Positions 19,049-33,379 of a DNA stretch of 48,970 nt are shown here, piece by piece (position 1 is the first letter of the stretch; every line of letters starts with the position of its first letter). The notes below the pieces were generated by a model. It was not told where the DNA came from. It made no database searches and saw only the letters and a program-made list of their open reading frames with translations. This DNA is from Nannocystineae bacterium (GTDB taxonomy: Bacteria; Myxococcota_A; Polyangia; Haliangiales; Haliangiaceae): positions 1 to 48,970 of the forward strand of contig SLNH01000166.1 of NCBI GenBank assembly GCA_007133195.1, given 5' to 3'. The position numbers were made by a program, and so were the translations under genes.

Positions 19049-20299
19049 TCACCCCTCGAAGCGCCTCACGACGAGCGCGGCATTGGTGCCCCCGAAGCCG
19101 AACGAGTTCGACACGGCGCCGCTAACGCGCGTCTCCCGCGCCTCATTGGGCACGTAGTCGAGATCACACTCCTCATCGGGCGTCTCGTAGTTGATCGTCG
19201 GCGGAAGCACCCCGCGCGACACCGCGAGCGCCGTCACCGCCGTTTCGATGCCTCCGGCGGCGCCCAACGTGTGTCCGATCATCGACTTGGTGGACGACAC
19301 GGCCAGCGATCGCGCGTGGTCACCGAACGCGCTTTTGATCGCCATCGTCTCGCTCTTGTCGTTGGCGGGCGTCGAGGTGCCGTGCGCGTTGATGTAGCCG
19401 ATGTCGGTGGGAGCCATGTTCGCGTCGGCGAGCGCGCGCTCCATGCACCGCTTCGCTCCGCGCCCCTCCGGGGCCGGCAGCGTGATGTGGTGCGCGTCGG
19501 AATTGGCCGCGTAGCCGGCGAGCTCCCCGTAGATCGGCGCGCCGCGGGCCTTGGCGCGCCCCAGCTCCTCGAGCACCAGCACCCCCGCGCCCTCGGCGAT
19601 CACGAAGCCGTCACGGTCCTTGTCGAACGGGCGGCTCGCCCGCGCCGGGTCGTCGTTCCGCTTGGACAGCGCCCGCGAAGCGTTGAACCCACCCACGCCG
19701 AGAAACGCGATGGTCGACTCGCACCCGCCGGCGAGCATGACGTCCGCCTCGTTCCAGCGGATGAGCCGCGCGGCCTCACCGATGGCGTGGGCGCCCGACG
19801 AGCACGCCGAGACATGGGACATGTTGGGCCCCTGCGCTCCGGTTTTGATCGAGAGCAGCCCAGGAGCCATGTTGATGATGATGTCGCTCACGAAGTAAGG
19901 AGAAAAGCCGTGGCGCGGTCCCTTCTCCCGCCCCTTCAAGTGCGTGCTCTCGATCGTACTGAGGCCTCCCAGGCCCGCGCCCACGTACACGCCCCAGCGC
20001 TCCTCCTCGCCCTCGGGGACCCGCCGATCGCCGTACCCCGCGTCTTCCATCGCGGCAAACCCGGCGGCGGCCGCGAGGTGCAAGAAGCGGTCATAGTGCT
20101 TGAGCTCGCGCTTATCCAGGTAGAGCGTGGGATCGAAGTCTTTGACTTCGCAAGCGAACCTCGTCGCGAAGGCCGACGCATCGAACTGCGTGATGGGCCC
20201 GGCGCCGCTCTCGCCGGCGAGCAGCGCCCGCCACGTAGCCTCGCGGTCGTTTCCGACCGGCGTGACCAACCCGATCCCCGTAATCGCGACTCGTCGCAT
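19049..20299 (-). CDS. fabF: Beta-ketoacyl-ACP synthase II
   Basis: 416 residues, a complete condensing enzyme elongating acyl chains with malonyl-ACP. The Cys-His-His triad is visible: Cys in [18 protein letters not shown], His in [15 protein letters not shown] and His in [15 protein letters not shown]. The C-terminal [10 protein letters not shown] glycine-rich motif is intact. ATG at 20299 begins [16 protein letters not shown], the family N-terminus. It follows acpP by 27 bases. KAS III (fabH) and malonyl transacylase (fabD), commonly in this cluster, are absent here. Confidence 0.96.
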
Positions 20300-20326
20300 A
20301 ACCTGGCCTTTCTCCTTCTCCGGCGC

Positions 20327-20569
20327 TCAGGAGGCGTTGGACTTGATGTAGTCGAACGCGTCCTTCACCGTACGAATCTTCTCGGTGTCCTCGTCCGGAA
20401 TTTCGAGCTTGAACTCCTGCTCGAGCGCGAGCACGAGCTCGACGACGGCCAGCGAGTCGGCCTTGAGGTCGTCGACGAACGAGGCCTCCGGGTGGAGCTG
20501 TTCTTCGGAGACTTCGAGCTGCTGGCAGATGAGCTCTTTGACCTTGGTTTCGATCTCCTCAGGGGACAT
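20327..20569 (-). CDS. acpP: Acyl carrier protein
   Basis: 80 residues, acidic helical bundle. The phosphopantetheine attachment serine is in [13 protein letters not shown], the usual DSL motif (here followed by Ala rather than Asp). It carries growing acyl chains for FabG, FabF and PlsX encoded alongside. ATG at 20569 has GGAG about 8 bases upstream. It lies between fabG and fabF with short gaps. Confidence 0.96.
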
Positions 20570-20623
20570 AGTGCTTCTCCTCGCGCGTGATGTTTCGTGG
20601 GTTCGGCTTCGCTGGGCCGTATA

Positions 20624-21388
20624 CTACATGAGCAGCCCGCCGTTGACTCGGATCACTTGGCCCGTGATATATCCCGACTCCGGACCGGCGAGGAAGGCCA
20701 CGACGCCTGCCACCTCGGACGGCTCGGCGATGCGACCGAGCGGGATCTGGCCAAGGAGCGACTCCCGCTGGGCCTCCGGCATCTCCTCGGCCGTCATGTC
20801 GGTCTCGATGAACCCGGGCGAGACCGCATTAACACAAACGCCGCGGGAGGCAAACTCGCGCGCGAGCGCTTTCGTGAGCCCGAGGATGCCCCCTTTGCTC
20901 GCCGCGTAGGCGGCCTGCCCGGCGTTGCCCTGCTCGCCGACGACCGAGCTCATATTCACGACGCGGCCGCGCTCCTTGGCCTTGAGCAGATGCCGCGTCG
21001 CGGCGCGCGTGCAGTAGAAGGTCCCCGCCAGGTTGACCTCCATCGTGCGCTGCCAGTCCTCGTCGCGAAACCGCAGCATGAGCCCATTTTTGGCGATGCC
21101 CGCGTTGTTGATCAGGGCGTGAAGACCGCCGTGCTCCTTGGCGACGCGATCGATCCCGTCTTTGACCGCCGCGGGGTCGGACACGTCGAACGCCGCGAGC
21201 GCCGCCACGCCCCCGGCGCGCTCGACGGCCTCCGCGGCCTCCCGCGCCGCGTCTTCATTGCTGGCGTAGTTGACCACCACCGTGGCTCGCCGCGCCGCGA
21301 GCGCCTCGCAGACCGCGCGGCCGATGCCTCGCGAACCGCCGGTGACGAGGGCCACGCAGCCCTCGAGCGCATTGTCCACAATTGCCAT
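20624..21388 (-). CDS. fabG: 3-oxoacyl-ACP reductase
   Basis: 254 residues, classical SDR. The NADPH motif is [11 protein letters not shown], followed by [11 protein letters not shown]; the catalytic triad is Ser in [15 protein letters not shown] with YAASKGG (Tyr and Lys). It reduces 3-oxoacyl-ACP in the elongation cycle. AGGAGG precedes ATG 21388 at ideal spacing. The 129-base gap to plsX is where fabH and fabD sit in many genomes; nothing coding is seen there. Confidence 0.96.
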
Positions 21389-21517
21389 ATCGGGCCTCCT
21401 TTACCGGTCCCGCCACCCGCAGCGGTCGCCGAGCTCCCAGCGGACCGTCAGCGAAATCGGATGCGAGACGCGAAAACCATCGTCGAGAGCAAAATCGAGT
21501 GAGACGGACGAGCGCGG

Positions 21518-22579
21518 TCACGCGCTCTGAGACGCGACGTCGCCCCCGCCGTCCTTCCAAAGCGATCCGTGGCGCTCGATGGCGGCGCCGAGCTGCGCAG
21601 GCATATCACGGTCGGCGAGCTGGCTCGCGCTTCGGATGGCGTTTTTGATCGCGCGCGGGCCGCTGCGCCCGTGGCAGATCATCACCGTGCCGCCAAGCCC
21701 CACGAGGGGGGCGCCGCCGGCCTGCGAGTAGTGCAGATGCTCGCGCAGCCCGGCCAGCGCGGGGCCGACCAGGTACGCGCCGAGCCGCGCGCGCACCGAC
21801 TCCGTGATTTGCGCCTGCACGAGCTGCATCACGGCTTCGGACATGCCCTCGGCCAGCTTGAGCACCACGTTGCCCGTAAACCCGTCGGTCGCGACGACGT
21901 CGATGCCGCCGCGAAACAGCTCCGAGCCCTCCACGTAGCCGCCGTAGTCGAACTGGGCCTCGGGGTGGGCCGCCGCCTTGGCCAGGATTTCGTCGGCGGC
22001 GCGCGTGAGCTCGGTGCCCTTTGTCGGCTCCGTCCCGTTGGACAGAAGCCCCACGCGCGGCCGCGCGCGCTCGTGCAGGAGTCGGTCGTAGTGCGCGCCG
22101 AGGATCCCGAACTGAGCGAGGACCGTGGGCTTGACCTCGACGTTCGCGCCCACGTCGCACAAAACCAGCGTCCCCGTGGGCGTGGGAAACACTGTGGCGA
22201 TGCCTGGCCGCTCGACCCCCGGCAGGCGCCGCAGCACGAACAGGCCGTGCGCCAGCACGGCGCCGGAGTTTCCCGCGGAGATCACGCCCGCCGCGTCGCC
22301 GGACCGCGCCAGCTCCAGCGCGACCCGGAGCGACGAGTCGCGCTTTTGCCGAAACGCCTGGCCCGGCGCGTCGTCCATGGTGACGACCTCGGAGGCGTGC
22401 CGGATCCCGATCCGGGGCTCGCGCGCGGCCCCCTGCGCGCCGAGCTCGGCCGTGAGCCGGGCCTCGTCACCCACGAGCACGACGTCGAGCGCGTGCTCGC
22501 GGGCGGCGGCAATTGCACCCGCCACTTCCGGGCCGGGGGCACGATCGCCGCCCATGGCGTCGACGGCAATAACGGTCAC
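21518..22579 (-). CDS. plsX: Phosphate acyltransferase PlsX
   Basis: 353 residues. PlsX makes acyl-phosphate from acyl-ACP for the PlsY step of phospholipid synthesis. Family features: N-terminal [41 protein letters not shown], and the C-terminal [20 protein letters not shown]. Start is GTG at 22579 with GGAG just upstream. It lies between rpmF and fabG, the conserved rpmF-plsX-fab arrangement. Confidence 0.95.
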
Positions 22580-23599: not shown

Positions 23600-23842
23600 G
23601 TCGGTGCCAGATCCCATGGGAGAGGAGCCTAGTACATGCATCGACTGGGCGCTGTCAAGAACACCACCCACAACAGAACACCTGATCATTTGAACATGAC
23701 TAAGACACACGCCGCGCGCCGCAAGTCGATGACCGGCCGAGCGGCGGTCCTCCGTCCTAGCCTCACGTCGCGGCCCGGCCTCGCACGGATGGCGCCGTCA
23801 GATGTCGTCGCAAGCCGTCCCCGCCGGTGCGCGCGCGGCGGG

Positions 23843-25411
23843 TCAGTCCGCAAGCCCCGCCAGCGCCGAGCCCCCCATGGTGAGGAGCGCCGACAGGTCC
23901 TCGTCGTTGAACCGGAGCATCGCGCCCACGAACGCGTCGCGACCGTAGCGGTAGTCGGAAAACCGCGTGGGGACCTCGGCGTCGTCGTCGACGATGGCGA
24001 GCTCCTGAGCCGGATTCAGCGCATCGTCGATCCCGCCCAACAGGTAGAGGTAGCCGAACATCTCGTAGGCGGCGGCGAGCTTGACCCGGGGCAGGCTGTC
24101 GAAGCTCGCCTCGAACGCGTCGAGCGACAGCGAAAGGTTGCCCCCCAGCGGCCGCGCGTCCACGCCCACCCCGCCCGTGTTTTCCTTGATGCCGTAGCGG
24201 AGCGTGATCCAGTCGAGGCGCTTGGCGAACTGGAAGGTGAACGCAAACCGGTCTTGAATCTCGACCTCGCGCCGGAACGCCCCCGCGTCGGGATCGTAGG
24301 TGAGCGAGACGTCGGGGAATCGGCCTCGCGGCCGCGACAAGAGCTCCACGTAGTAAAACTTGTCGGGCCGCGTGTGCAGCTCGAGGGTCACGTAGTGGCG
24401 CGCGGCGCGCGCGAACACGTTGTACTCCGACCTGAGCCCCACGTAGGTTTGCAGGCCGAACAGCGTGTCCGTGAAGTCGCGGGCGTCCTCCGTGATCTGC
24501 GCGACGTTGTCGGCGATGGTGGGGTCGTTTACGAGCCGCCCCAGGGTCCCCTGGTCTTCGTCGACCTTTCGCGCCACCGACTCGGAATGCTCGAGCAGGC
24601 CCTCGGTTTGGTCGAGGCGGGCGCGGAGCGACTCCCCGGTGTCCTCGAGCTCGCCCTGGGCGGTGGTCATGAGCGCGTCGGCGTCCGCGGAGGCGCTCTC
24701 CAGGTTGGCCAGGATATTGTCGATGCGTTGGTCTGCCCCGTCGGCGGCCGATCGGATCTCGGCCGTGATGTCCTCGATGTTTCGCACCGACGACTCGGTG
24801 CTGGCGAGGATCGCGGCCAGCGTGTCGGACTCCTCCTGGACGAGATCGTCCAGGCGCGCGGCCATGTTGGCGATGGGCCCGCGCACGATGCCGCGGACAT
24901 CCTCGCTGAGGTCGCGCACCGACAACAGGACCTCGTCGACCTTCGGCATCGTCTCCTCGACCTGGCGCAGCACGTCTTCGGGCGAGGTCGCCTCGAGGAC
25001 GCGCACGATCTCGTCGCCGTCGCCGAGCCGCTCGTGCTCGACCTGCCTGCCGGCCGCGTCGGTGCTCACCGGCGTCCCCGGGTCGATCTCGATGTAGAAG
25101 TCACCGAGCAGCGACGCCGAGCGCTTCATCGCGATGGCGTTGTCCCAAACCTCCACATCCCGGCGGATGTTCATCGTCACCCGCGCTTTGCGGCCGACGA
25201 TGTCCAGCCGATCGATCTCACCGATGGGAAGCCCCGCGACCATGACGCGCGACCCGACGGGGAGCCCGGAGGCATCTTCGAACTCCGCGTAAAGCTGGTA
25301 GGCGTCGCGGCCGGCCGGCTGCGTCCCCACCGCGCGCCACACGGCGTACGAGCCCGCGGCCATGATGACGACGAGAATGCCGACCTTGACGGCCTGTGAG
25401 ACGTTCTTCAT
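23843..25411 (-). CDS. mlaD: MlaD-family MCE protein with coiled coil and C-terminal predicted beta-barrel
   Basis: 522 residues, far longer than E. coli MlaD (~180). N-terminal membrane anchor (~8-26, VGILVVIMAAGSYAVW), one MCE domain (~38-120, SGLPVGSRVMVAGLPIGEI), a long helical/coiled segment (~130-325) and a C-terminal ~190-residue part with alternating hydrophobic strands and aromatic girdles (YVTLELHTRPDKFYYVELLS, FAFTFQFAKRLDWITLRYG, VGAMLRFNDED). MCE proteins carry phospholipids between inner and outer membrane. I infer that the helical part spans the periplasm and the C-terminus inserts in, or docks at, the outer membrane. AGGAG precedes ATG 25411. It follows mlaE by 25 bases; no ABC ATPase gene is adjacent. 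Confidence 0.87.
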   Translation of the reverse strand: MKNVSQAVKVGILVVIMAAGSYAVWRAVGTQPAGRDAYQLYAEFEDASGLPVGSRVMVAGLPIGEIDRLDIVGRKARVTMNIRRDVEVWDNAIAMKRSASLLGDFYIEIDPGTPVSTDAAGRQVEHERLGDGDEIVRVLEATSPEDVLRQVEETMPKVDEVLLSVRDLSEDVRGIVRGPIANMAARLDDLVQEESDTLAAILASTESSVRNIEDITAEIRSAADGADQRIDNILANLESASADADALMTTAQGELEDTGESLRARLDQTEGLLEHSESVARKVDEDQGTLGRLVNDPTIADNVAQITEDARDFTDTLFGLQTYVGLRSEYNVFARAARHYVTLELHTRPDKFYYVELLSRPRGRFPDVSLTYDPDAGAFRREVEIQDRFAFTFQFAKRLDWITLRYGIKENTGGVGVDARPLGGNLSLSLDAFEASFDSLPRVKLAAAYEMFGYLYLLGGIDDALNPAQELAIVDDDAEVPTRFSDYRYGRDAFVGAMLRFNDEDLSALLTMGGSALAGLAD

Positions 25412-25436: not shown

Positions 25437-26440
25437 TCACCACCCCTGGGTGGGGAGGATCGCGATGAGGATTTCCGCCAAAAAGTAGTTCAAGACGAGG
25501 ACACTCACGGAGGCGTGTACCACGGCGCGGGTCGTGCCCATGCCGACCCCGCGACCGCCACCGCTGGCATGATAGCCCTGGTAGCAGCCGATGAGAACGA
25601 TGACGAGACCGAAGACGGCCGACTTGACGAGGCCCTGCAGGATCGCGAGGGGCCCGACGAGGGCCTCGAAGTTCGACACGAACTGGCCGTGGTCTACGCC
25701 CAGGTTTACCACGGCCACCAAATAGGCCCCGGCCATGCCCACGATGAAGAAGATGAGGGTGAGGATCGGGGCCATGACCAGGCCGGCGACGATGCGCGGA
25801 AGCACCAAAAACTGCACGGGGTTTATGGCCATGGACTCGAGGGCATCGATCTGCTCGGTGATGCGCATGGTCCCGATTTCGGTAGCCACCCCGGAGCCGA
25901 CCCGCCCGGCGAGCATCAGCGCCGTAAGCACCGGCCCGAGCTCGAGGGCGAGCGCCTGCCCGGTCGTGCCGCCTGCGAACGACTCGAGGCCGAAGTCGCG
26001 AAACGCGAACACGGCCTGAAGCGACGTGACCATCCCCGTAAACGCGCCCACCAAAACCACGATCGGCAACGAGCCGAAGCCGATGTAGTCGCCGGCCTCG
26101 AAGTAGTTGCCGAGCCGGAACGGGCGCCTCGGCAGCCAGGACAGCGCGCGCACGAGGAGGATGATGTGCGCGCCGATCGCTTCGACCAGCCGAAACAGCG
26201 GCGCAAGCGCCTCGCGGGCACCCTGCCCGGCGGCCCCGGCGACGTTGCGGGCGCGCCCGGCTTTCCGCTCGCCGCCCGCGCCTTCGCCTCCTTCTTGGCC
26301 GGACCCGCGATCCCCGCCGCCGCTTCCCGCGCCGCCTTCGGCTGCCTCGGTGGCGGGCGCGGGCGCTTCCCCGCCCTGCGCGCTCGTCCCACCTCCGGCG
26401 TGCGGCCCCTCTTCGCGACTTCCGTTCGACCCGCCCGCGC

Positions 26441-26444
<4 letters not shown>
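25437..26444 (-). CDS. mlaE: MlaE-family ABC lipid-transport permease with disordered N-terminal extension
   Basis: 335 residues. The C-terminal ~260 are the MlaE permease fold, with several membrane helices and the conserved GPVLTALMLAGRVGSGVATEIGT-type loop (ELGPVLTALMLAGRVG), then QIDALESMAINP and LVLPRI. The first ~65 residues are Gly/Glu/Ala-rich with almost no hydrophobics, an unusual disordered cytoplasmic tail. With MlaD it should form an inner-membrane lipid transporter; the ATPase partner (MlaF) must be encoded elsewhere. ATG at 26444 overlaps the alr stop by 4 bases (ATGA), arguing for translational coupling. Confidence 0.9.
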
Positions 26445-27595
<1,151 letters not shown>

Positions 27596-30566: not shown

Positions 30567-32717
<2,151 letters not shown>

Positions 32718-33379
32718 AACGTTCGCTCCTTTGGCCGTTGGCCGTATCGCTAGTCCCCCGGAGCAGACGTCGCAGGCAGCCGGCGGTGCCCGCCCTCGGG
32801 GGGGAAGAGCGAAAACCGCGGTGCGGTGGCGATCTCTGTCCGGTTCGGTTTCATCGTGGTGTTGGTCGTGCCCGCGCACGTGGCGGGGAAAAACGTAGGC
32901 GCGTTTTTATGGCGTGCGGATTAGCCCGTCGTTGTGCGCGTCGCTGGGCGTGTTCCATTGCACTCGGAAAACGTCCCGCCGCTCGGGCCGCGCAGGGCAC
33001 CGCCTCGCCAAAGCTGCGCGGAGCCCCGGCCCGAGCGCGGCCGGGAGCTGGGCACGAGGCCCGGACTCCCGACGCGCGGGGCCCCTACTCTTGCCTGGAT
33101 TCCGTACGTTTGACCACCCCACGCGCGGCTTTCCATTCGATCTCAGCGCCCAGCGCCCTTGGGGAGATCCTCCCGGGCCCCGTCGCCCGGCGCATAGGGG
33201 CTGCCGGCGCTGCGCGATGGCGTGTACCACACGCTGTATGCCCCCGAAATCACGACTCCGTAGCCCGGGGGAGAGCGGGGTTCGCGCAGAGCGGCGCGCC
33301 ATCCCCTCGGCTCGCTCCGCGACGTGCCAGCGGCGTCGGCCCGCCACGACCGGCCGCCGAAACCGGCCCGCGCGGATGC
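32718..33379. other. Long noncoding interval upstream of hppA
   Basis: 662 bases between the end of the lipoprotein lipase (33380) and hppA. Open frames exist on both strands, but their Arg/Pro/Ala-rich translations and codon use look like chance frames in GC-rich DNA. It must contain the hppA promoter. A weak AT-rich inverted repeat (AAAAACG 32889-32895, CGTTTTT 32902-32908) stands out. A small RNA is possible but not shown. Confidence 0.45.

Follow-up and report, generated by a model that had tools for sequence, protein, structure and literature searches.

The 522-residue MlaD-like protein encoded in the window (the whole 48,970-nucleotide stretch of DNA analyzed here) is very probably a Veillonella-type transenvelope MlaD, reaching from an inner-membrane anchor to a predicted outer-membrane barrel. 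Judged from its sequence, it combines an N-terminal membrane helix, an MCE domain, approximately 170 helical residues, and a C-terminal domain whose couplings fit a closed ten-strand meander, and its gene is adjacent to mlaE. A bridge of both membranes made from one polypeptide has already been published; the protein described here is new only as a member of that group.

Gene and domain organization

The protein is encoded on the minus strand by a single open frame without internal stops (Table 1). The original prediction had placed a 522-residue MlaD with an MCE domain at these positions without giving a strand, and both the frame and the domain were confirmed (PF02470, E = 1.7e-16, 60.7 bits against a cut-off of 25.1). 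The score against TIGR04430, the equivalog model for MlaD of the E. coli type, was 68.9 bits, under the cut-off of 135. A long frame on the opposite strand (23636-25399, plus) was rejected as a chance frame because it is the minus-strand frame that has a family.

The sole candidate for a transmembrane helix is N-terminal: 19-residue windows with KD above 1.2 begin only at residues 1-12, and the best of them begins at residue 7 (mean KD 1.85). The spacer beyond the MCE domain has PDB matches that are mostly coiled coils and helical bundles. It had been expected to be helical and approximately 200 residues long; the helix was upheld, whereas the length was revised to approximately 170 residues (about 144-316). 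If the 173 residues formed one straight helix, simple length arithmetic gives a span of approximately 26 nm. Strands were also found where a strand-rich C terminus of approximately 190 residues (330-522) had been proposed, although the domain is slightly longer at approximately 205 residues, with strands at about 318-502 and a short C-terminal helix after them. The C-domain has no Pfam family and no solved relative among the PDB matches listed, in which the best family-profile matches span the MCE and helical parts only.

Table 1. Positions of the mlaD-like gene, its predicted parts, and the adjacent permease gene in the window
Feature	Position	Strand	Basis
mlaD-like gene (TM helix, MCE domain, long helix, C-terminal barrel, tail helix)	23843..25411	-	Open frame; Pfam MlaD 1.7e-16; full-length homologs at ~30-55% identity
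Inner-membrane anchor helix, about residues 7-29	25325..25393	-	Hydrophobicity windows
MCE domain, residues 37-112	25076..25303	-	PF02470; profile matches to solved MlaD, Mce1, and LetB/YebT chains
Helical spacer, about residues 144-316 (173 aa)	24464..24982	-	Helix in low-confidence model; PDB coiled-coil matches
Predicted 10-strand beta-barrel, about residues 320-502	23906..24454	-	Covariation ladders and closure; alternating faces
C-terminal helix past last strand, about residues 503-522	23846..23905	-	Family consensus NDEDL..LL..GG; helix in both low-confidence models
mlaE permease gene	25437..26480	-	PF02405 3.8e-75; TIGR00056 above cut-off

The mlaE gene ends 25 bp upstream of mlaD on the same strand. 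The position of its start codon is uncertain, and its frame overlaps alr; the other neighbors are alr itself, yceD (both confirmed by profile match), and a fatty-acid cluster. No mlaF was found in the 48,970-nt window, leaving the operon without this gene. From sequence reading only, the fatty-acid cluster (19049-22579) appears to be ordered plsX, fabG, acpP, fabF, with a 130-bp gap between plsX and fabG that is too small for fabH or fabD, and a 770-aa frame at 30567-32879 (minus strand) resembles a membrane-bound proton-pumping pyrophosphatase.

Covariation in the C-terminal domain supports a closed barrel

AlphaFold2 models of the full-length protein and of the C-domain alone, made from two-row alignments (the window protein and a Silvanigrellales relative, L005), had pLDDT values of 33 and 34 and were discarded as evidence. 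Because structure prediction gave confidence this low (approximately 34), the barrel was tested by covariation, with mean-field direct couplings calculated from 214 aligned homologous C-domains (effective number 140). The couplings fit an antiparallel beta-meander of ten strands in which the first strand is paired with the last. Among the ten best seven-pair antiparallel ladders were seven consecutive hairpins, b1-b2 through b7-b8 (listed in the order b3-b4, b2-b3, b4-b5, b6-b7, b7-b8, b1-b2, b5-b6), one extension of b3-b4, and one closure between b1 and b10. This closing ladder (321-327 x 496-502) scored 4.67 and was second of 14,064 windows, and Q321-N502 was the third strongest single coupling. 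Meander and closure pairs had a median score of 4.0 compared with 2.2 for all other strand pairs (Mann-Whitney p = 2e-5), and closure ranked first of the 36 non-hairpin strand pairs.

The first 154 sequences, which partly overlap the larger set, served to define the strand limits, so the test on 214 sequences is not fully independent. A column-shuffle null was applied to the first, smaller data set only, and there the closure score fell inside the null; in the larger set, 27 of 1,827 random distant segment pairs reached the closure score. The b8-b9 and b9-b10 ladders were weak, and their registers did not suffice to fix the shear number.

Residues alternate between aliphatic and polar along most strands, giving one face with a mean KD of +1.46 and another with a mean of -1.24. 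Twenty conserved charged positions (10 basic and 10 acidic) lie on the polar face, and the charges on the aliphatic face are mostly near strand ends. Conservation of the polar face was not significantly higher than that of the apolar face (p = 0.23). Taken together, the meander, its closure, and the presence of one aliphatic and one charged face support a narrow closed barrel, and the covariation part of this support is independent of structure prediction. Such alternating faces and balanced charges are what would be expected of narrow outer-membrane barrels whose core is charged, and the predicted barrel would probably be inserted in the outer membrane. These results agree with the C-terminal barrel of the original prediction; a C-domain predicted to be soluble or helical, the outcome that had been named as contrary to it, was not obtained.

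Homologs are found throughout Myxococcota

The window comes from an assembly of 5.64 Mb in 496 contigs that is 99.2% complete. MlaD matches were found in 54 of 56 related genomes, nearly all of them full-length, and matches of some kind were present in 270 of the 286 genomes sampled across the phylum Myxococcota, many strong and full-length and others weak. The domain architecture is therefore not the product of a chance frame. MlaD of the barrel type is common in Polyangia, the host class within Myxococcota. The more distant Silvanigrellales relative (L005) lies on a contig with an ATPase gene upstream, and no relative was found on viral contigs.

A second full-length MlaD of the barrel type, 32-40% identical, occurs in genomes of the same family (L060-L064, L073, L076, L077, L081-L088). 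This copy has no mlaE or close mlaF match in the flanks that were fetched, and it is absent from the genome that contains the window. In 42 genomes of the class or phylum, the sequence read directly upstream of mlaD revealed neither mlaE nor mlaF, with many of these genomes read over approximately 200 bp only.

MlaA was absent from all 56 genomes searched. No MlaC was found in the genome of the window; MlaC-like proteins are present in 46 of the 56 relatives, although none of these genomes has MlaA.

An unlinked tandem MlaF ATPase accompanies most mlaE-mlaD loci

In 28 of the 36 relatives in which both ends of the locus could be read, mlaF sits between mlaE and mlaD. In the other eight, including the genome of the window, mlaE is directly before mlaD and there is no mlaF. 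An unlinked gene of approximately 530 aa that encodes two MlaF-like domains in a single chain accompanies seven of the eight mlaF-less loci compared with 1 of 28 loci with mlaF (Fisher p = 7e-6), and the mlaF-less loci are scattered on the MlaE and MlaD tree. In the eight fused genes that were examined, Walker A, Walker B, and the H-loop are preserved in both halves of the ATPase; the signature is LSGGM in the first half and degenerate (mostly ISEGQ) in the second, where the D-loop reads GQDP. The neighbors of the fused gene were unrelated in the two genomes checked.

The fused ATPase was found in 44 of the 286 genomes across the phylum. The gene directly before mlaD was mlaE in all 28 fused-gene genomes that could be read, and the fused gene was absent from all 10 further genomes in which mlaF adjoins mlaD. 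There were four apparent exceptions: in two, the pair consists of halves that are adjacent or interrupted, and in another the copy is cut at a contig end or otherwise partial, these split or partial ATPases having E values above the first cut-off. In total for Myxococcota, a tandem ATPase is present in 38 of 40 mlaE-mlaD genomes compared with 1 of 34 mlaF-mlaD genomes (Fisher p = 1.7e-17, ancestry ignored), and it is almost always one fused protein of approximately 530 aa (labeled genomes L102-L109, L112, L267-L269). The scattered changes within one family are better evidence than the p value because the latter ignores shared ancestry.

The genome of the window is one of the two exceptions among the 40, with neither an operonic mlaF nor a fused MlaF found in the assembly. 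Its only MlaF-like ATPases of this type are those of two other Mce operons, C438 and C449. The C449 locus (L041, 3700-8300) is a double Mce operon, mlaF-mlaE-mlaE-mlaF-MCE-MCE, which suggests a heteromeric transporter.

Discussion

We propose that six copies of MlaD would assemble their MCE domains into a ring on the inner-membrane protein MlaE, that their six helices would span the periplasm as a hydrophobic tunnel, and that the C-domains would insert in the outer membrane and so anchor the tunnel. Phospholipid could then pass directly between the membranes without MlaA or a soluble MlaC carrier, most likely from the outer to the inner membrane, and the ATPase, not being in the operon, would have to act in trans. 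Because the barrel looks narrow and filled with charged residues, it would more likely serve for anchoring or docking than as the channel for lipid. The barrel of the published protein was likewise remarked to be too narrow for a phospholipid (PMC10665443).

If the C-domain were instead a soluble beta-domain of the periplasm, resembling a lipocalin or serving as a lid and binding either lipid or a partner in the outer membrane, the protein would reach toward the outer membrane without entering it. Alternating polar and apolar faces occur in soluble barrels too, so the alternation by itself also fits such a domain, as do the absence of a significant excess of conservation on the polar face and the low confidence of the AlphaFold2 models (pLDDT 33-34). 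However, 20 balanced conserved charges on one face, with the charges of the aliphatic face mostly near strand ends, fit a lipid-facing exterior, and published proteins with the same domain order have a modeled membrane barrel, which in isolation was recovered in the outer-membrane fraction (PMC10665443); we consider a soluble C-domain quite improbable. It is also unlikely that the cargo of a membrane-spanning MlaD is something other than phospholipid or that the transporter works outward, for example in sterol or hydrocarbon import like mycobacterial Mce. The MCE and helical region does match mycobacterial Mce models, and the TIGR04430 score is well short of its cut-off (68.9 against 135), but nearly all relatives retain the gene, so that its occurrence is not sporadic, and both the domain order and the mlaE partner correspond to those of Veillonella, whose mla mutants have phenotypes of outer-membrane lipid asymmetry (PMC10665443).

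As to the energy source, the comparative pattern tips us slightly toward a scheme, read from sequences, in which MlaED in Myxococcota often lacks its own MlaF and depends on an unlinked, trans-acting ATPase with two MlaF domains in a single chain (the first half canonical with LSGGM, the second degenerate with ISEGQ/TGQDP), a symmetrical dimer having been repeatedly swapped for an asymmetrical one, and in which the system of the window belongs to this class. The ATPase swap is a correlation. The absence of the fused gene from this genome may reflect an assembly gap or the sharing of another MlaF. Mycobacterial Mce systems share one ATPase, which offers a parallel for the latter, and the MlaF proteins of C438 and C449 are the only MlaF-like ATPases of the type found in the genome. 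Each of the two sits within its own operon and is only 38-44% identical to operonic MlaF, and 38 of the 40 mlaE-mlaD loci are accompanied by a tandem ATPase; that one of them, and not a fused ATPase that the assembly lacks, energizes the mlaED pair is therefore possible but doubtful. The trans-acting tandem ATPase that we favor suggests a case in which the ATPase of an ABC lipid transporter relocated, underwent fusion, and became asymmetrical. This pattern is invisible to a search for MlaF by synteny, the only kind used in the 2023 study of Veillonella parvula MlaD, the phylogeny of which also included MlaDE clusters without mlaF, so that an operonic mlaF is not strictly defining (PMC10665443).

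The joining of inner and outer membranes by one polypeptide, as originally predicted, is thus supported here at the level of sequence and was already published with fractionation data from Veillonella (PMC10665443). Grasekamp et al. (2023) described V. parvula MlaD with the same parts and a ten-strand barrel modeled with AlphaFold2, showed that a barrel construct fractionates with the outer membrane, and found 103 barrel-bearing MlaD sequences across diderms (PMC10665443). The present work adds Polyangia, with a large number of homologs, to the range of this minimal bridge-type Mla design.

The likeness to V. parvula MlaD is one of domain order: a transmembrane helix, one MCE domain, a long helix, and a C-terminal ten-strand barrel, the last of these being predicted in the Polyangia protein. 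The two systems also share an mlaE partner and have no MlaA or MlaC. They differ in the length of the protein (522 aa here, 419 aa in V. parvula) and of the spacer (approximately 170 and 150 residues, respectively), and the Polyangia protein has a C-terminal helix past the predicted barrel and an operon without mlaF. With the E. coli MlaFEDB-MlaC-MlaA system it shares the MlaE permease and an MCE domain of the MlaD family, but E. coli MlaD is 183 aa long, stops after the MCE domain, and depends on MlaC and MlaA, neither of which was found in this genome; the contrast with a soluble-carrier system drawn in the original prediction is right but repeats a published conclusion (PMC10665443). The combination of an MCE ring with a helical tunnel across the periplasm that is proposed here is shared with E. 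coli PqiB and mycobacterial Mce1A-F. Unlike the MlaD described here, PqiB contains three MCE rings and lacks a barrel, and the hetero-hexameric Mce1 has a small six-strand barrel built from one strand of each chain (PMC10665443).
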